Shown: positions 7,279 to 16,109 of the stretch, piece by piece | Position numbering within the stretch: the first letter of the stretch is position 1 | Layout of the letters: each line of letters starts with the position of its first letter | Source of the DNA: Mycolicibacterium litorale | GTDB lineage: Bacteria; Actinomycetota; Actinomycetes; Mycobacteriales; Mycobacteriaceae | DNA length: 64,000 nucleotides | NCBI RefSeq assembly: GCF_010731695.1 | Contig: NZ_AP022586.1 | Coordinates: 930,001 to 994,000 of the forward strand | Reading direction: 5' to 3' | The notes under the pieces: model-generated | Seen by the model: the letters and a program-made list of their open reading frames with translations, nothing else | The model's database searches: none | What the model was told of the DNA's origin: nothing | Made by a program: the position numbers and the translations under genes

Positions 7279-7845
7279 CTATCGCTGTTCGGGGACGTCG
7301 GCGTCGGCGGCGAGCTGGTCGGCCTCGGCCCGGATGCGCTCGGCCTCGGCCTTCGCGCTCGCGGCCGCCTCGGCGGCTTCCGCACGCTCATCGGCGGCCT
7401 CGGCGACCTCGGCGGCTGCCGAGACCTTCTCGGCGCGAGCTTCGGCCTCGGCCTGCTCGACCTTGCGCTGGGCCTCGGTCTCGGCCTGCGACGCGTCACG
7501 CGCCGCACGCTGTGCCGCGGCCTGTTCGGCGTGCCGCTTCTGTGCGGCCTGGTCGGCGCGGGCCTCGCGCTCGGCGGCAGCGGTCTCGGCGTTCACGGCG
7601 ATGCGCTCCTGCGCACCTTCCCGCCGGGCCTCGGCCACCTCCTGGCGAGCCTGTTCGGCCTCGGCCTCGGCGACCGCCTCGACCGCGTTGGCGTCCTTGC
7701 GCTCCTTGGCCTGCGTCTGTTCCAGCTGTCCCTCGGCGGTCAGCGAGTCGTTACCGGTCACGGCGCCGACGACCTCTTTCGCCTTGCCCTTGACCGAGTC
7801 GATGAGGCCCTTGCGAGCCTGGTCGGACTTGTTGTTCTCAGTCAT
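7279..7845 (-). CDS. CsbD-like stress protein with coiled-coil tail
   Basis: The first ~55 residues match the CsbD family of small general-stress proteins (DSVKGKAKEVVGAVTGNDSL and AEGQLEQTQAK). The remaining ~130 residues are an Ala/Glu/Arg-rich coiled coil, much longer than classic CsbD (about 60-70 residues). ATG at 7845 has AGGGG 5 bases upstream; a TTG immediately before it is less likely. First gene of a two-gene unit with the coiled-coil gene ending at 6583; both share the same unusual composition and could form a complex. CsbD proteins are usually controlled by general-stress sigma factors, so SigF/SigB control is a reasonable guess, but no clear promoter was identified. Confidence 0.78.
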   Translation of the reverse strand: MTENNKSDQARKGLIDSVKGKAKEVVGAVTGNDSLTAEGQLEQTQAKERKDANAVEAVAEAEAEQARQEVAEARREGAQERIAVNAETAAAEREARADQAAQKRHAEQAAAQRAARDASQAETEAQRKVEQAEAEARAEKVSAAAEVAEAADERAEAAEAAASAKAEAERIRAEADQLAADADVPEQR

Positions 7846-8562: not shown

Positions 8563-9894
8563 ATGCCGGCCATTCGACGACTGGCAGCGCTGACCATCGC
8601 GTCGACGACCGCGGCCTCGCTGGTCCTGCCGCTGGCGACCAGTGCGCCCGCCGCCGCCGATCCCTGTTCGGTCCCCGTGGCCGCCGCACCGTCGGCGCGC
8701 AGTGCCACTCCCGGCGCCAACCCGGGCGTCGCGCTGCCGCGGTTCCCGGTCCTACACCTGCCGATCGGCCGCAAGCCGGCGCCGAAGACCACCCCCGCCG
8801 AGGCCGCGCAGGCCGACGCGGCCGTCGCCCCCGAGACCCAGGCGCGGGCGGCGGCCGCCCCCGCCGCGTCCGGAGCGACCGTCGTCGACACGATCGTCGG
8901 CCCGGCGTCGGACTCCTACCAGCGGTTCGGCATCTCCGGCGCCGACCTCGGGATCATGTGGGACAACGGCCAGTCCGGTACCCAACGCCAGGTGCTGATC
9001 GCCTTCGGTGACACCTTCGGCAACTGCACCCTGCCCGACCAGGAATGGCGCAAGAACACGCTGTTCCGCAGTTCGACCAAGAACCCTGCCGACGGGCTGA
9101 ACGTCCCGAGCCCCGTCCCCGGCGACCGGTACGGCGGCTCGCCGGCCAACGCCGACCGACCGAACTTCTCCCGGCAGGTCATCCAGAGCCTCAACCTCGC
9201 CGCCACCGAGGTCACCGTCATCCCCACGGCCGGCATCTCCGTCGGCACCCGCCAGTACGTCAACTTCATGTCGGTCAGCCAGTGGGGTGCGCCCGGCCAG
9301 TGGTCGACGAACTTCTCGGCGGTCGCGGTCTCCGACGACAACGGGGAGACCTGGACGGTGCCGCGCACCAGCATCCGCCCCAGCTGGTTCAACACGGTGC
9401 CGGGCGTGCAGTTCGTCTGGGGCGACCAGAACTTCCAGATGGGCGCCTACGTGCGCCACAGCGGCTACGTCTACGCCTACGGCACCGGTGCCGGACGCGG
9501 CGGCATGCCGTTCCTGTCCCGCGTCGCCGAGAACGCCGTCGCGGACAAATCCGCCTATGAGTACTACACCCCGTTCGGCTGGCTGAAGGGATTCCCGTTC
9601 CTGGCCATCCAGGTGGTCTGGGCGCCCGGCAGCGAGATGTCGGTCGCCTGGAACGAGCACCTCGAGAAATTCGTGATGCTCTACACCAACACCGCGAGCA
9701 ACGTGGTGATGCGCACGGCCGACAAACCCGAGGGCCCGTGGAGTTCGGCCAAGACGATCGTGACCTCCGCGGCGGTACCCGGCGGCATCTACGCCCCGTA
9801 CATCCACCCGTGGTCGACGGGCAACGACCTGTACTTCACGCTGTCACGCTGGTCGGACTACAGCACGCTGCTCATGCACACGACGCTCGGTTAG
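8563..9894 (+). CDS. Secreted DUF4185 protein
   Basis: A 443-residue exported protein. The N-terminus is a classical signal peptide (RR at residues 4-5, a hydrophobic core, cleavage after about ASAPAAA), followed by an Ala/Pro-rich linker to about residue 105. The rest is a DUF4185 domain, predicted to be a sialidase-like beta-propeller; typical elements are IAFGDTFGNC, NGETWTVPRTS and GGIYAPYIHPW. DUF4185 proteins are common in mycobacterial cell envelopes and some have been linked to arabinogalactan- or arabinofuranose-degrading activity, so glycan binding or hydrolysis is possible here but not shown by sequence. ATG at 8563 has GAAAGG upstream. Its stop overlaps the stop of the convergent Cys-repeat gene. 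Confidence 0.88.
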   Translation: MPAIRRLAALTIASTTAASLVLPLATSAPAAADPCSVPVAAAPSARSATPGANPGVALPRFPVLHLPIGRKPAPKTTPAEAAQADAAVAPETQARAAAAPAASGATVVDTIVGPASDSYQRFGISGADLGIMWDNGQSGTQRQVLIAFGDTFGNCTLPDQEWRKNTLFRSSTKNPADGLNVPSPVPGDRYGGSPANADRPNFSRQVIQSLNLAATEVTVIPTAGISVGTRQYVNFMSVSQWGAPGQWSTNFSAVAVSDDNGETWTVPRTSIRPSWFNTVPGVQFVWGDQNFQMGAYVRHSGYVYAYGTGAGRGGMPFLSRVAENAVADKSAYEYYTPFGWLKGFPFLAIQVVWAPGSEMSVAWNEHLEKFVMLYTNTASNVVMRTADKPEGPWSSAKTIVTSAAVPGGIYAPYIHPWSTGNDLYFTLSRWSDYSTLLMHTTLG

Positions 9895-10244
9895 ACGTGC
9901 ACATCGCGCAGCCCGACCGCGTTGCGCAGGCCCGAGCAGTTGTAACAGCCCACGCAGCCAACGCAATTCGCGCAGCGAGCGCATCCGAGGCAGCCGACGC
10001 ACCGGACGCAGGCGAAGCAGCCGGCACACGCCAGGCAGGCGCTCATCGCGAACGACAGTGCCACCAGCGCACTTCCGGCGACCGCGGCGCTGTTGACCGT
10101 CGCGAGTGAGCCGCTGATCCCGGCGCTGTTGACGGTGCCCATCGACCCCGACACGCCGGCGCTTCTCAGGGTCGCCACCGATCCGGCCACGCCCGCGCTG
10201 TCGCGGGTCGCCTTCGACCGCACCACACCGCGGCGCCGATTCAT
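9891..10244 (-). CDS. Cysteine tripeptide-repeat protein (12 Cys at i+3)
   Basis: I do not recognise a described family. The 117-residue protein has a basic N-terminus, four 12-residue Ser/Gly/Ala repeats (residues 16-63, consensus SAGvsGSxaTvn), then twelve cysteines at exactly every third residue, positions 70 to 103 (for example CVGCLGCARCANC), and a short polar tail. It is a real gene and not a shadow: its ATG overlaps the stop of the upstream SDR gene as ATGA, and it ends the coupled ABC-SDR operon. A metal-binding or redox role is an obvious guess from the Cys ladder; a peptide precursor or structural role is also possible. Positions between cysteines are small or hydrophobic with occasional Arg/Asn. 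The residue 52-66 region is hydrophobic but short for a membrane anchor. Confidence 0.75.
   Translation of the reverse strand: MNRRRGVVRSKATRDSAGVAGSVATLRSAGVSGSMGTVNSAGISGSLATVNSAAVAGSALVALSFAMSACLACAGCFACVRCVGCLGCARCANCVGCVGCYNCSGLRNAVGLRDVHV
9936..10037 (-). repeat. Region encoding the (Cys-X-X)12 run
   Basis: Bases 9936-10037 encode twelve cysteine codons, each followed by two variable codons, which gives a 9-bp periodicity. Only the cysteine codon is strictly kept while the two between vary, which suggests selection on protein spacing and not simple DNA slippage. Confidence 0.85.
10056..10199 (-). repeat. Four 36-bp imperfect repeats
   Basis: Encodes residues 16-63 as four units of 12: SAGVAGSVATLR, SAGVSGSMGTVN, SAGISGSLATVN and SAAVAGSALVAL. 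The units suggest a short beta-coil or solenoid preceding the Cys ladder. Confidence 0.8.
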
Positions 10245-10981
10245 CCGGCCGTCTTCCCGTTGTCGACCAGGTACACCGCGCCGTGCACCGCCGCGGCGTC
10301 GTCACTGGCGAGGAACGCGATGGTCTTGGCGACGTCGGCGACGTCCATCATCCCGCGGGGCGCGGCGATGCGCATGATCAGGTTCCAGTCCGCCTGTTCG
10401 GGTGCGGCGAACTCCGTCGTCTGCGGCGTGACCATGCCACCCGGGCAGATGGCGTTGACGCGCAACCGATCTGCGGTGAACTCGATGGCCAGCGCCCGCG
10501 TCAGCCCGACCAGCCCGTGTTTGGCCGCACAGTAGCCCGCCGAGTACACCTCGCCCTCGATACCGGCGATGGAGGCGACGTTGACGATGTTGCCGCCGGT
10601 CTCGAGCAGGTGCGGCAGCGCCGCGCGGCAGAGGTAGAACGGCCCGTTGAGGTTGACGGCGAGGTCGCGGTCCCAGTCGTCGTCCGACATCGACGGCGTG
10701 TGACGCATCTGGTGGTAACCGGCGATGTTGGCCAGCACGTCGAGCCTGCCGAACTCGGCGACGCAGTCGTCGACGGCGCGGCGGCAGGCCTCGGGTGAGG
10801 TGATGTCGACCGACGCGAAGGACCCGCCGGGCACGTCGGCGAACACCTCGGTCATCCGGTCGGCGTCCCGGGAGATCCCGAACACCGTCGCACCGCGCTC
10901 GGCGAACAGCTTCGCCGTCGCCGCACCCAAACCGGACGACGCGCCGGTCACCAGCGCCACCTTGCCGCTCAGCTGTGTCAC
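10241..10981 (-). CDS. SDR-family oxidoreductase in peptide-ABC operon
   Basis: A classical short-chain dehydrogenase/reductase, 246 residues and cytosolic. It shows the Rossmann motif TGASSGLG (about 13-20), NIAG in the NNAG position, catalytic Ser in VASIAG and YCAAK as the YxxxK motif. Arg-Asp after beta-2 (SRDADR) is compatible with either NAD or NADP. GTG at 10981 lies 13 bases after the ATPase gene stop, and its own stop overlaps the start of the Cys-repeat gene (ATGA), so all are translated from one message. The substrate is unknown; it could process whatever the ABC importer brings in. Confidence 0.88.
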   Translation of the reverse strand: MTQLSGKVALVTGASSGLGAATAKLFAERGATVFGISRDADRMTEVFADVPGGSFASVDITSPEACRRAVDDCVAEFGRLDVLANIAGYHQMRHTPSMSDDDWDRDLAVNLNGPFYLCRAALPHLLETGGNIVNVASIAGIEGEVYSAGYCAAKHGLVGLTRALAIEFTADRLRVNAICPGGMVTPQTTEFAAPEQADWNLIMRIAAPRGMMDVADVAKTIAFLASDDAAAVHGAVYLVDNGKTAG

Positions 10982-10994
10982 GGCAACGACTGTC

Positions 10995-12608
10995 TCACGC
11001 CGAGGCGCGCGGCCGGGCGGGAGGCACCGCCGCCAGCAGATCCCGCGTGTAGGGCTGCTCGGGCGCGGCGAACAGCTCCGCGGCCGGGCGGTGCTCGACC
11101 GCGGCCCCGTCGCGCATCACCAGGACGTCATGGCTCATCCGCTGGATGACCGCGAGGTCGTGGCCGATGAACAGATAGGTCAGCTCGAGATCGCGCTGCA
11201 GGCGGGTGAGCAGGTCGAGCACCTTCGACTGCACCGAGACGTCAAGGGAGGCCGTGGATTCGTCGAGGATGAGCAGGTCCGGTTCGGTTGCCAGTGCCCG
11301 TGCGATGCTGACCCGTTGGCGCTGACCGCCGGACAGTTCGTGCGGGTACCGTGACGCGAACTCCGCGGGCAGTCCGACGAGGTCGAGCAGTTCGGCGACC
11401 CGCGCCCGGCGGCCGTCCCGCCCGTCCACCAGCTTGTGCACGGCCAGCGGTTCCCCGATCGCAGCACCCACCCGCATCCGGGAGTTGAGCGACGAGAACG
11501 GATCCTGGAACACCAGGCTGATCCGCCGCCGCAGCCGCTTCTCGTCGGCGCCGCGAACCCCGAACACGTCGACGCCGTCGAGCGTCGCGGTCCCGGCGTG
11601 GGGTGCCACCAGACCGGTCAGCGCAGCGGCCACCGTCGACTTGCCGGACCCGGACTCGCCGACCAGGCCGAGGGTGGTGCCACGACGGATCCCGAACGAA
11701 AGGTCCTGCACCGCATGCACCGTCGAACGGCCGGTCGGTCCGGACACGTCGAAGCGCACGTCGAGGCCGTCGACCTGCAGCAGGACAGGGGAGTCCGGAT
11801 CGGCGGGTGGGGGACCGTCACCGCCGACGAGGGGGCGGGCCGCCAGCAGCTCGCGGGTGTATTCGTGGCGCGGCCGGTCGAAGACGTCGAGTACCGGAGC
11901 CTGCTCCACGGCGCTTCCGTGCTGCAGCACGGTGACGTCGTCGGCGACCTGTCCGATCACGCCGAGGTCGTGGCTGATCCACACGACCGCGGTGCCGAAG
12001 TCGCGCTGCAGGTCTCGCACCAACTCGACGATCTGCGCCTGGGTGGTGACGTCGAGCGCGGTGGTCGGTTCGTCGGCGATGAGCAGTTCGGGGTCACACG
12101 CCAGCGCGATCGCGATCATCACGCGCTGACGCTGACCGCCCGACAGCTGGTGCGGGTAAGAGTCCAACCGGCGCTGGGCCTCGGGCAGACCGACGGCGGT
12201 GAGCAGTTCCAGGGCACGGCCCCGCGCCTGCCGCCGCGTCATGTTCCGGTGCGCTTCCAGCGATTCGGTGATCTGACGTTCCAGCGTCAGCAGCGGATTG
12301 AGCGACGTGCCCGGATCCTGGAACACGAACCCGATCCGCCCGCCGTGCACGGTGCGCAGCGTGCGCGCCGACGCGTCGACGAGCTCGATCGGCGGCGCTC
12401 CGCCGAGCAGGCTGGACCCGCTGATCCGCGCCCCCGGTGCGTCGAGCAGACCCGTTGCGGCCAGCACGGTGATCGACTTCCCGGACCCGGACTCACCGAC
12501 GATGCCGAGGGTCTTCTCGCGCTCGACGGAGAACGAGATGTCGCGCACGATGTCGCGGCGCCCGATCCGCACGGCCAGATCGGCGACCTCGAGGACGGGT
12601 CCGGTCAT
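10995..12608 (-). CDS. Peptide/nickel ABC importer, fused double ATPase
   Basis: A 537-residue cytosolic protein in which the DppD-like and DppF-like ATPases are joined. Each half has Walker A (GESGSGKS), the signature LSGGQRQRV and Walker B ([13 protein letters not shown] and [13 protein letters not shown]). Both halves carry the C-terminal extension typical of oligopeptide ATPases (about residue 260 and the end). ATG at 12608 overlaps the stop of the second permease gene (ATGA), which fixes the start although the frame stays open far upstream. It powers the importer formed by the two permeases and binding lipoprotein. Fused forms are common in actinobacteria. Confidence 0.93.
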
Positions 12609-13495
12609 TGCTTTCTCCGCGCCTCGATCATGGTGCGCTGCTTGGGGTCCAGCACATCTCGCATCCCGTCGCCGAGCAGGTTGAACGCCAGCACGATCAC
12701 GAAGATCGCCGCGCCGGGGAACACCGCCATCCACCACGCCAGCGTCACGAAACCCTGCGAGTCGAAGATCATCCGGCCCAGCGACGGCTGCGGCGGCTGG
12801 ATGCCGAGCCCGAGGAACGACAGCGCGGCCTCGGAGAGGATCGCGAACGCCAGCGAGATCGAGGTCTGCACGATCAGCGGTCCCGAGATGTTCGGCAGCA
12901 CATGGCGGGTCAGGATGTAGAGGTGGCCGGTGCCCATCGTCCGCGACACCGCCACATAGGGTTCGACCCGGACCGACAGTGTGCTCGCTCGGGAGACGCG
13001 GGCGAAGATCGGGGTGTAGACGATGCCGATGGCAAGGATCGTCGTGGTCACCCCCGGCCCGAGGATCGCCACCACCGCCAGCGCGAGCAGCAGCACCGGG
13101 AACGCGAACATCACGTCGACGATGCGCATGAACACCGTGTCGAGCCAGCCGCCGCGGTAGCCCGCGACCACCCCGATCGTCACCCCGACGACCACCGCGA
13201 ACGCCACACTGATGACCGCGACCCGCATGGAGGCCTGGATGGCGACCAGCACGCGGGAGAACACGTCGCGCCCCAGTTCGTCGGTGCCGAGCCAGTGCGC
13301 GCCGCTGGGGGACTGCAGCGCATTCGGCACGTCGATGTCGTTGACGCCGTAGGGGATCAGCCAGGTGGCGAACGCGGATATGACGATCACCACGGCGAGG
13401 ACGAGCGCGCTGACCACGGTGACGGGATTGCCGAGCAGCAGTCGCCACCCCGGAACTCGCGTCGCGGTGTTGGTCTCGTCGGCCGGGGCGGTCAT
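12605..13495 (-). CDS. DppC-like ABC permease
   Basis: An inner-membrane permease of the peptide/nickel importer family, 296 residues with about six membrane segments. The N-terminal part includes the conserved HWLGTDELGRDVFSRV motif of the DppC/OppC group, and the EAA-loop region reads YVAVSRTMGTGHLYILTRHV, where it contacts the ATPase. ATG at 13495 overlaps the preceding permease stop (ATGA), and its stop overlaps the ATPase start. It pairs with the DppB-like permease to form the channel. Confidence 0.93.
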   Translation of the reverse strand: MTAPADETNTATRVPGWRLLLGNPVTVVSALVLAVVIVISAFATWLIPYGVNDIDVPNALQSPSGAHWLGTDELGRDVFSRVLVAIQASMRVAVISVAFAVVVGVTIGVVAGYRGGWLDTVFMRIVDVMFAFPVLLLALAVVAILGPGVTTTILAIGIVYTPIFARVSRASTLSVRVEPYVAVSRTMGTGHLYILTRHVLPNISGPLIVQTSISLAFAILSEAALSFLGLGIQPPQPSLGRMIFDSQGFVTLAWWMAVFPGAAIFVIVLAFNLLGDGMRDVLDPKQRTMIEARRKQ

Positions 13496-14460
13496 GACAG
13501 CCGGATCCTCGGGTCGACGACGGCGTACAGCACGTCCACGATCAGGTTGATGAGAAGGAACAGCGCGGCCATCAACAGCACGGCGCCCTGGATGACGGGA
13601 TAGTCGCGGGCGGCCACGGCGTTGTAGACCAGCCTGCCCAGGCCGGGCCAGGCGAACACCACCTCGACGACGATGACCCCGCCCAGGATCGTGGCGAGCT
13701 GGATGCCGGTGATGGTGAGAACCGGGATCAGCGCGTTGCGCACGGTGTGGCGCGCGGTGACCACGCGCGGCGGAAGACCCTTGGACCGGGCGGTGCGCAC
13801 ATATCCGGTCGAGGCCACTTCGAGCACCGCCGAGCGGATGTAGCGGGTCATGATCGCCGCCGCGACCACCCCGACGGTCAGTCCGGGCAGGATGATGTGG
13901 CGCAGCCACCCGGCCGGATCGTCGAACAGCGGCCGGTAGCCCGACGTCGGCAGCCATCCGAGCGTCGACGAGAACAGCGCGATCAGCAGGATACCGAGCC
14001 AGAAGTCGGGGATCGACACGCCGAACTGACTGGTGATCCGCACGATCGCGTCGCTGGCCCGGCCCTCGTGCAGCGCCGAGTAGATCCCCGCGGGCACCGC
14101 GATGAGCATCGCGAACACGATGCCGACCAGACCCAGCGACACCGTCGCGGGCAACCGGTCGAGCAGGGTGGCGGTGACCGGGTCGCCGTTGCGGAAGCTC
14201 ACCCCGAGGTCACCGGTGAGCGCATTGCCCAGATAGCTGAAGAACTGCACGATCAGCGGCCGGTCCAGCCCGCTGGCCGACCGCAGCGCCTCATACGCCT
14301 CGGGCGTGTAGCGGGTCCCCAGCGCGATCCGCACCGGATCGCCGGGTACCAGCTGCACCAGCGCGAACACCACGATCAGCACACCGATCAGCACCACCAG
14401 CGAGTAGGCGACCCGCCGGGCGAGGAAGCGCACGACGGGGTGGGCGGCCAGGGTTCTCAC
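13492..14460 (-). CDS. DppB-like ABC permease
   Basis: A 322-residue inner-membrane permease with the family's first-helix block (FALVQLVPGDPVRIALG), six or so membrane spans and the EAA-type loop GYVRTARSKGLPPRVVTARH. GTG at 14460 overlaps the stop of the binding-protein gene as GTGA. The three-way overlaps across this operon suggest the subunits are made in fixed ratio. The substrate is decided by the lipoprotein, which is not diagnostic. Confidence 0.93.
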   Translation of the reverse strand: MRTLAAHPVVRFLARRVAYSLVVLIGVLIVVFALVQLVPGDPVRIALGTRYTPEAYEALRSASGLDRPLIVQFFSYLGNALTGDLGVSFRNGDPVTATLLDRLPATVSLGLVGIVFAMLIAVPAGIYSALHEGRASDAIVRITSQFGVSIPDFWLGILLIALFSSTLGWLPTSGYRPLFDDPAGWLRHIILPGLTVGVVAAAIMTRYIRSAVLEVASTGYVRTARSKGLPPRVVTARHTVRNALIPVLTITGIQLATILGGVIVVEVVFAWPGLGRLVYNAVAARDYPVIQGAVLLMAALFLLINLIVDVLYAVVDPRIRLS

Positions 14461-15995
14461 GAGGATTCGTCCTCACCGAGGACCGCGCTGCGGAACCGGA
14501 CCGCGCCGTCGCGGCGGGCCTCGTACCCGGACAGCGCGGGGGTCCAGGCCTGGATGACCGACGGGTTGTAGAGGTAGATGTAGCTGACCTCGTCGGCGAT
14601 GCGGGTGGCCGCCTTCGCGTAGCCGTCCCGGCGGGCCTCGCGGTTGGTCTCGACCCGGCCGGCGTCGAGCAGCCGGTCCACCTCGGGGTCGGAGAACTTC
14701 TGGGCGTTGCTGGTGCCGTTGGTGTGGTGCTGGGCGTAGTAAAAGTCGTCGGGGTCGATGTTGCCCAGCCAGCCCATCATCAGCATGTCGAAGTTGCCGT
14801 TGTTCTGTTCGTCGAGCCAGGTGGCGAAGTCGACGGTGCGGATGTCGACGGTGATGCCCAGCGGGGCGAGGTTGTCGGCGATGATCTGTGCGGCGGTGAC
14901 GGTTTCCGGGTACTCGCTGGTGACCAGCATGTCGAGTTTCCCCGGTTTCGCATTCGCCTCGGCCAACAGGCTTTTCGCCTTGTCGACGTCGTAGGAGTAG
15001 GTGTCGTACGGCGTGTACCAGGGGTTGCCCTCGGGGATCGCGAGCTGGTTGCGCGCTGCGGTGCCGTAGCTCGTCGCCGCCACGATGGCTTCGCGGTCGA
15101 TACCGTAGGCGATCGCCCGGCGCACCCGCACGTCGTTCCACGGCGGCCGGGCCTCGTTGAGCGCCAGATACCAGTAGTCGTTGCTGGGCGTGACGGCCAG
15201 CCGCAGCGATTCGTCGTCGCGCAACTGCGAGACACGCTGCGGCGGGACCGAATCCGTCCAGTCCACCTCACCGGCCTGCAGTGCCGAGAGCGCCGTCGAC
15301 GGTTCGGAGATGAAGCGGAACGTCACCCCGGAGATCCGCGGCGCCCCGTCCCAGTAGGACGGGTTGGCGCGCAACGTGATCAAGTCGCCGCTGGTGGCAC
15401 CGGCGAACGAGAACGGCCCGGTGCCGACGGGATGGGTGGCGATGCGTCCGCTCTCGACGTTGGCCCGCGACACGATCGCCATCCCCTTGAAGCCGCCGAG
15501 GTTGGTCAGCAGGTTGGGGGTGGGCTTGTCGACGGTGATGCGCACGGTGGCCGGATCGACCGCCGTGATGTCGGTGACCGCGGCGAACTTGTCGACGTTG
15601 GTCAGCTCCTCGTCGATGATGCGGCGGTACGAGTAGACGACGTCGTCGGCGGTGAACGGCGACCCGTCGTGGAAGGTGACGCCGCGGCGCAGGTGGAACG
15701 TCCACACCCGCTGGTCGGGGCTGACCTCCCACGACTCGGCCAGCGCCGGGCGCATCTCCAGGTTCGCGTCGGGTTCCACGAGGGTGTCGAAGACGTTCTC
15801 GAGCACCTCGAACGAGAAGTACGCGCTGGTCTTGTGCGGGTCGAGCTGATCGGGTTCGCCCGCGATCGCGGCGACCAGGTTGCCCGATGCGGCGTCACCC
15901 AGGTCGACCCGCTCGCCGGTGGAGCACCCCGTCATCGCCAGCAGCAGCGCCGCGGTCAGCGCGAGGCAGGCAGCCAGCACCGCGTCACGCCGCAT
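14457..15995 (-). CDS. Peptide/nickel-type substrate-binding lipoprotein
   Basis: A family 5 extracellular solute-binding protein, about 512 residues. The signal peptide ends in a lipobox (LLLAMTGCS), so it is anchored to the outer face of the membrane. Domain hallmarks are FDTLVEPD, RGVTFHDGSPFTADDVVYS, and the C-terminal NIDPDDFYY segment. ATG at 15995 has GAGG about 8 bases upstream; a GTG at 16004 in the same frame is an alternative. It is the first gene of a six-gene operon ending with the Cys-repeat protein. Ligands in this family include peptides, nickel chelates and sugars; no ligand can be assigned. It is divergent from a secreted-protein gene. Confidence 0.9.
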   Translation of the reverse strand: MRRDAVLAACLALTAALLLAMTGCSTGERVDLGDAASGNLVAAIAGEPDQLDPHKTSAYFSFEVLENVFDTLVEPDANLEMRPALAESWEVSPDQRVWTFHLRRGVTFHDGSPFTADDVVYSYRRIIDEELTNVDKFAAVTDITAVDPATVRITVDKPTPNLLTNLGGFKGMAIVSRANVESGRIATHPVGTGPFSFAGATSGDLITLRANPSYWDGAPRISGVTFRFISEPSTALSALQAGEVDWTDSVPPQRVSQLRDDESLRLAVTPSNDYWYLALNEARPPWNDVRVRRAIAYGIDREAIVAATSYGTAARNQLAIPEGNPWYTPYDTYSYDVDKAKSLLAEANAKPGKLDMLVTSEYPETVTAAQIIADNLAPLGITVDIRTVDFATWLDEQNNGNFDMLMMGWLGNIDPDDFYYAQHHTNGTSNAQKFSDPEVDRLLDAGRVETNREARRDGYAKAATRIADEVSYIYLYNPSVIQAWTPALSGYEARRDGAVRFRSAVLGEDESS

Positions 15996-16109
15996 CACGA
16001 CCACCTCAAGATCAACCGGGCATCTGGACGCTTCGTACCCCCTACAGTCGTGTCCGCAAACGTTTCGAACCGCTGACGAGCCGGGCGGCGGACTGCCATA
16101 CTGACCGCG

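Follow-up and report, generated by a model that had tools for sequence, protein, structure and literature searches.

In hyperactive antifreeze proteins of the Tenebrio type, which are secreted, the chain is wound into 12-residue coils with inward cysteines, two of which per coil are joined in disulfides, and TxT motifs form the ice face. The cysteines of the mycobacterial protein MymT are irregularly spaced. As outlined in PMC7558416, MymT is a small, cysteine-rich Cu(I) protein of 4.9 kDa from a non-annotated open reading frame (ORF), and the copper storage proteins Csp1 and Csp3, the latter cytosolic, are four-helix bundles whose cysteine-rich core holds many Cu(I) ions. A C-terminal Cys-Xaa-Xaa repeat is described for the heterocycloanthracin precursor of Bacillus (TIGR03601; PMC2674419), a short protein that is easily missed in annotation and varies in its number of repeat units. 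Here we report on a gene of Mycolicibacterium litorale with twelve consecutive CXX triplets, hereafter the ladder gene. It lies in a stretch of 64,000 nucleotides (contig NZ_AP022586.1, positions 930,001 to 994,000; “the window”), whose own numbering is used throughout.

With the heterocycloanthracin precursor, as described in PMC2674419, the ladder protein has in common the short length, the C-terminal repeat and the ease with which it is missed; it differs in its near-constant twelve units and its conserved tail. In an NCBIfam scan of 105 family members (E ≤ 0.01), no heterocycloanthracin-type model matched, assuming that TIGR03601 is present in the release; three families were matched, all weakly, and Pfam and NCBIfam together offered no fitting family beyond weak low-complexity matches. 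A preliminary description of this DNA had noted no described family known to have such a ladder. This holds for these two collections and fails for the repeat as such, since (CXX)n had already been described for heterocycloanthracin (PMC2674419). MymT, compared by its description in PMC7558416, is a 4.9 kDa protein for which no repeat half is mentioned, whereas the ladder protein has 117 residues and a repeat half. The Csp core, again judged by description (PMC7558416), may be the closest working analogue of the ladder, reached by a different fold: the ladder protein has a period of 12 residues and a predicted β-solenoid. Both the repeat period and the second of our AlphaFold2 models, of modest confidence, argue against Csp-like helices.

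The ladder gene and its conservation

The ladder gene occupies positions 9891..10244 on the minus strand, from an ATG at 10242-10244 to a stop at 9891-9893, and is supported by its frame, its homologues and codon-level selection. A GGGAAG-like ribosome site lies 8 nt upstream of the ATG, which starts inside the stop codon of a short-chain dehydrogenase/reductase (SDR) gene (ATGA, an overlap of 4 nt). No promoter or terminator was found in a scan around the gene, and no signal peptide or other secretion signal was seen by eye. The twelve cysteines at exact three-residue spacing that had been noticed at the outset were confirmed in the 117-aa product at residues 70, 73, 76, 79, 82, 85, 88, 91, 94, 97, 100 and 103, with none elsewhere. 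Across the six frames of the window this is the longest in-register cysteine run, followed by two runs of 5 and eight of 3, and the longest runs in 100 first-order Markov controls were 2-4.

A period of three residues runs through the whole protein. On the minus strand, the N-terminal half comprises four 12-residue units of the approximate form S-x-(A/G)-V-x-G-S-x-(A/G)-T-x-x (residues 16-63; 10056..10199), for example SAGVSGSMGTVN, and is followed by a half unit, S-F-A-M-S-A (residues 64-69; 10038..10055), within the most hydrophobic stretch. The Cys ladder itself (residues 70-105; 9930..10037) consists of twelve CXX triplets, which we read from the sequence, the codon table and the covariation as three 12-residue coils of four Cys each. 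The conserved tail LRNAVGLRDVHV (residues 106-117; 9894..9929) ends the protein. The ladder DNA is loosely repetitive, with a 9-bp unit (67% matches, 10% indels) and two copies of a 27-bp unit (76% matches). In a different genus, a 59-aa open frame (L136, 1465-1641, minus strand) holds a (CVG)n run with at least nine units, which resembles such a 9-bp DNA repeat, not a gene.

The codon table was built after 19 of 151 loci had been set aside as duplicates, copies from the window itself or weak remote matches. Among the 133 remaining sources, window included, 125 matched a C-terminal anchor and gave 106 distinct sequences. Cys columns 36, 39, 42 and 45, with some of their neighbours, are part of the anchor, so the invariance of these four columns is partly due to the selection of rows; the other eight Cys columns are free of it. 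Copies without the anchor did not enter the table, and three loci (L057, L078 and L095) carry a ladder and gave no anchor match. When changes were counted by parsimony on a tree built from the same DNA, the twelve Cys columns had 11 at the first codon position, 4 at the second and 210 at the third; the corresponding counts for the 22 intervening columns were 243, 172 and 521. For the eight Cys columns outside the anchor the counts were 11, 4 and 143. The Cys columns are under strong purifying selection, with 210 third-position against 15 first- and second-position changes, and neutrality at the Cys codons, which the preliminary description had named as a sign against the ladder, is excluded. 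Each of the Cys columns switches between TGC and TGT.

All twelve cysteines were present in 88 of the 106 rows, and columns 12-52 held no off-register Cys. The 18 incomplete rows lacked one Cys (11 rows), two (4 rows) or four (3 rows). The main place of loss was the first three Cys columns (94, 99 and 98 of 106), and the last nine retained Cys in 103-106 of 106, four of these nine being required by the anchor. The residues between the cysteines, at first described as freely variable, do vary in the first two thirds of the ladder; the last third is nearly invariant among the 106 distinct sequences as xDC(V/I)GC(V/I)GCxNCSGLRNxxG, part of which is required by the row-picking anchor.

On sequence evidence, this is a real, conserved and largely unannotated protein family. 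Ladder matches, a few of them weak, were found in 112 of 248 sampled same-genus genomes, own genome included. A set of 61 genomes (relatives plus the own genome) gave 25 with matches; besides the own genome, these were 22 genus-mates and, in other genera, two with weak repeat matches (G046 and G052). An order-wide sample gave matches in 30 of 397 genomes, 21 of these in the genus, and a phylum-wide sample in 14 of 396, including 6 in the genus, two clear members from another class (L141 and L142) and several weak repeat matches. A scan of named genomes returned 321 candidate stretches, of which 204 were confirmed. The 80 loci kept belong to Williamsia, Pseudonocardia, uncultured actinobacteria and Mycobacterium sensu lato. 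In 79 of the 80, at least eight ladder Cys follow one another without a break; in L082, one ladder Cys is replaced by Ser. Among 5.8 billion predicted proteins, a profile search found 38 matches, of which 36 are single-member clusters and several are doubtful. This number is a lower bound because the search covered candidates within a length limit and among the 7990 best word-sharers. Even so, the family looks under-called, with 38 predicted proteins against 204 confirmed genomic stretches, and a simple codon-usage gene caller recovered the ladder gene at 57 of 80 loci. Neither the CVGCVGC signature nor a paper title naming a mycobacterial (CXX)n family was found in the open-access literature searched. 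A phage or plasmid gene was rejected, with no match in phage and plasmid records. Three further relatives (L133-L135) have shorter ladders of about eight Cys and long N-terminal repeats, and could show the minimum ladder. In another actinobacterial family, a 75-aa frame with 13 Cys in SCPPCPACASCAAC-type triplets (L148, 1408-1632, plus strand) could be either an artefact or a (CXX)n protein without relation to the ladder.

Repeat period and predicted fold

Over the homologues, the N-terminal half showed self-identity peaks at lag 12 (0.67) and lag 24 (0.61), with lower values at lags 6 and 18 (0.39) and lag 3 (0.18), and no peak at lag 5 or lag 20 (0.11 each). Membership of the pentapeptide-repeat proteins (MfpA, Qnr), which have five residues per side against three in the ladder protein and no Cys ladder, was rejected on these peaks. 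A collagen-like protein was rejected as well, since the third position is as a rule G, A, R, N or D, not Gly at every third residue; Pfam Collagen matched 7 of the 105 members weakly and not the window protein. Covariation, which is a more independent test of the 12-residue period than self-identity, was analyzed among the variable non-Cys columns of the ladder. Among the seven separations tested, separation 12 stood out (0.93 and 1.19 standard deviations; permutation 0.0024 with the full alphabet and 0.0008 with a reduced one), and separations 3, 6, 9, 15, 18 and 24 did not. The 12-residue period by which a β-solenoid was judged was thus found in both lag-12 identity and covariation, the solenoid itself being predicted.

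A backbone scan was made with a strict three-residue repeat and a pitch of 4.8 Å, in which clash-free conformer classes were counted per coil length. This gave 6, 20, 10 and 1 classes for coils of 9, 12, 15 and 18 residues. In the displayed 12-residue classes with an α-L corner at triplet position 3, a corner assumed from composition (G/A/N/D/R), only position 1 points inward, with its C-β 2.3-3.2 Å from the axis. Depending on the rotamer, the cysteine sulfur (SG) would lie 1.1-3.7 Å from the axis, mostly 1.5-3.1 Å, a range that spans the metal-sulfur bond; some rotamers clash. The preliminary description had placed all Cys on one face of a three-residue-per-turn helix. This was not borne out: such a helix was set aside because the repeat period, covariation and backbone geometry are all better matched by a 12-residue coil, and favour cysteines pointing into a tube. 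The repeat unit comprises 12 residues in four triplets, not a three-residue turn.

In two AlphaFold2 runs, each with its own alignment, roughly every third residue of the ladder was assigned a bridge, and the predicted local distance difference test scores for the block were 82-85 in one run and 73-78 in the other. The models are counted as agreement only, because their overall confidence was modest and AlphaFold2 is described as over-predicting solenoids in PMC11795689. A search of the PDB by sequence gave two weak matches (E 0.1 and 0.28), which were not taken as relatives, and Foldseek and VIA gave no convincing solved fold, the ladder part being barely covered. The Tenebrio-type antifreeze protein, which shares the 12-residue coil and inward Cys with the predicted structure, was not among these fold matches. 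There is moderate support for each 12-residue unit forming one square coil of a narrow β-solenoid.

Several results weigh against this interpretation. The lag-12 self-identity alone could be explained by repeat duplication. In the unpermuted covariation table, separations 11, 23, 2 and 19 were raised too, and the effective number of sequences was about 34. The best 15-residue coils bond 12 of 12 N atoms, against 8 in the 12-residue α-L classes; these coils are two solutions only and would accommodate inward side chains larger than those present. As to the gene rather than its fold, the frameshifts and free Cys loss that the preliminary description had named as adverse signs were found in part. 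No internal stop occurred among the genomic matches listed; the predicted metagenomic protein P0005, judged by eye, carries most of the ladder in a neighbouring frame, for which mutation and sequencing error are both possible, and P0004 and P0007 each lack a ladder Cys.

Possible function and alternative explanations

Our tentative preference, held with somewhat less than even confidence, is that the ladder protein is a cytosolic, thiol-lined β-solenoid that binds a soft metal, perhaps Cu(I). In such a structure the first residue of each triplet would point inward, being Ser, Thr or Val in the N-terminal coils and Cys in the last three, and the third, rich in Gly, Ala, Asn, Asp and Arg, would form the corner. 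The last three coils would make a tube lined by 3 × 4 thiols, whose thiolates, in the reducing cytosol, might bind a row of soft metal ions, most likely Cu(I) and then Zn(II), and the protein would act as a metal buffer or store. Nucleation and capping of the tube would fall to the N-terminal coils, and closure of its end to the conserved LRNxxG tail. Selection shows that a thiol is needed, not merely a small side chain, because the inward N-terminal positions accept Ser, Thr or Val while nine ladder columns hold Cys in nearly every row (103-106 of 106). For twelve invariant thiols clustered in a cytosolic protein, soft-metal binding is the most plausible role, and the redox or metal neighbours at some loci (FrdB/SdhB-type, WhiB, SodC and hemerythrin) are consistent with this. 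Metal binding by the ladder thiolates and the role as buffer or store have weaker support than the coil; the cytosolic location, the identity of the metal and the physiological role are those that we infer. More doubtful is the full proposal of a new protein architecture, in which a minimal square β-solenoid with three residues per side and Cys at every inward position of its last three coils would form a 12-thiolate channel holding a fixed-length string of Cu(I) or other soft metal ions on its axis, in a widespread, mostly overlooked gene family. If true, this would be a new way to build a metal site, as a linear thiolate channel of defined length made from a very simple solenoid, and the channel could serve as a design template. 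Even if the tube is wrong, a conserved gene family overlooked by annotation is exposed.

The inward cysteines might instead pair, giving a disulfide-braced β-solenoid that stiffens a small exported or envelope protein or serves as a thiol redox store. The coil would be the same as in the beetle antifreeze protein, and in the backbone scan the SG atoms of residues i and i+3 approach to 0.9-2.2 Å by rotamer choice, so that a disulfide is possible. We regard this as unlikely, as no signal peptide was seen by eye, the mycobacterial cytosol is reducing, four Cys per coil exceed the need for cross-bracing, and Cys loss is not mainly in pairs, 11 of the 18 incomplete rows lacking a single Cys. It seems quite unlikely, too, that the protein is a modified-peptide precursor, with the N-terminal half as leader and the ladder converted to thioethers or thiazoles as proposed for heterocycloanthracin. 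The (CXX)n precursor in Bacillus is described as encoded far from its maturation genes (PMC2674419), and the ladder is a small gene at operon ends. YcaO occurred in 5 of 22 other ladder-bearing genus-mates and in 0 of 14 without a ladder, a weak association, and this explanation keeps weight because all five YcaO genus-mates carry a ladder. However, neither the own genome nor 17 of those 22 have YcaO, and membership of the thiazole bacteriocin or thiazole/oxazole-modified microcin precursors is not supported on that ground. Moreover, conservation is highest in the putative core and tail and lowest in the “leader”, the ladder length is near-constant where heterocycloanthracin varies by CXX units, and none of the neighbours that were annotated (80 proteins and cluster representatives; 25 of 65 families listed) was recognised as a maturase.

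An Fe-S cluster scaffold or wire for neighbouring redox enzymes (FrdB/SdhB-type, SDR) would account for the FrdB-type 2Fe-2S/4Fe-4S gene adjoining 17 of 80 loci and for WhiB beside some. We consider it decidedly unlikely, since the pore of the backbone scan looks too narrow for a cubane within one coil, many loci have no Fe-S neighbour, and SDRs carry no Fe-S. Polycysteine upstream ORFs of mycobacteria are an analogue for a Cys-sensing leader ORF, in which the twelve Cys codons would stall ribosomes at low cysteine and regulate a neighbouring gene, here perhaps the overlapping SDR. This is very improbable: the ladder comes last in the window, where the gene beyond it is convergent; of 32 SDR-linked loci, it is first at 17 and the SDR first at 15; and the non-Cys residues are conserved too. 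Finally, a chance open frame or DNA-repeat artefact would fit the low-complexity DNA, the few copies in predicted protein sets, the (CVG)n run of L136 and the frame-shifted P0005, but it is hardly credible given the excess of third-position changes in the Cys columns and the absence of internal stops among the genomic matches listed.

Genomic context of the ladder

In the window, the ladder gene follows the SDR oxidoreductase gene (10241..10981, minus strand; Pfam adh_short_C2, 2.2e-55) and, probably in the same operon, the genes of an Opp/Nik-type ATP-binding cassette (ABC) importer. These NCBIfam-assigned genes, all on the minus strand, encode a double ATPase (10995..12608), permeases of the NikC/OppC type (12605..13495) and the NikB/OppB type (13492..14460), and a substrate-binding protein of the NikA/Opp/GsiB type that scored under every curated cut-off shown (14457..16004). 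A rough script scan of the 155 nt preceding the ABC operon gave no metal-regulator boxes. On the other side, a convergent DUF4185 gene (8563..9894, plus strand; PF13810, 1.4e-109) overlaps the ladder stop by 4 nt and is not counted in the system.

Neighbours were surveyed at 80 loci (79 fetched and the window), with genes from the codon-usage caller. One SDR ortholog family adjoins the ladder at 36 of the 80. The preliminary description had taken the coupling to an SDR as proof of a real gene and had asked whether both are conserved across actinobacterial genomes; the ATGA overlap, the reality of the gene and the conservation of the Cys positions stand, and the SDR neighbour is not universal. 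The other 35 SDR orthologs are 72-91% identical to that of the window and lie on the same strand as the ladder, mostly within about 60 nt and on either side of it; three larger overlaps reflect over-extended ladder starts. Ladder and SDR distances correlate (Spearman 0.57), which can be explained by shared species history. The surroundings of the SDR-linked loci are an ABC importer, carotenoid genes (a polyprenyl synthetase by Pfam, a desaturase and a phytoene synthase by eye from sequence) or others. The SDR adjoins the ladder in at least 45 of 111 listed ladder genomes. Among the best 149 of 190 SDR genomes, 80 have no ladder in the ladder list and 69 have one, adjacent in 45. An obligatory SDR partner was therefore rejected, the SDR being common without a ladder. 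At seven SDR loci without an adjacent ladder (L152-L158), no ladder or remnant was seen within about 400 nt translated on each side; the end of an ABC-ATPase gene precedes the SDR clearly in six of them and partly in L157, and the genome G242, which is among them, carries a ladder on a different contig.

An FrdB/SdhB-type Fe-S gene lies next upstream of the ladder at a further 17 of the 80 loci. At the loci of mixed context, for which 80 of 101 neighbouring proteins from 27 loci were tallied and 25 of 65 families listed, the Pfam matches listed include WhiB (3), SodC (2) and hemerythrin (2) alongside many other, unrelated families. The ladder behaves as a module of its own that sits next to operons of different kinds. 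At two loci (L045 and L088), a Cu/Zn superoxide dismutase gene is next downstream of the ladder; on the upstream side of the ladder are hemerythrin and Rieske/DUF2231 genes in L045 and a WhiB gene in L088. In the window, a charged, repeat-rich gene whose start resembles the CsbD stress protein by eye lies near the ladder operon at 7279-7845.
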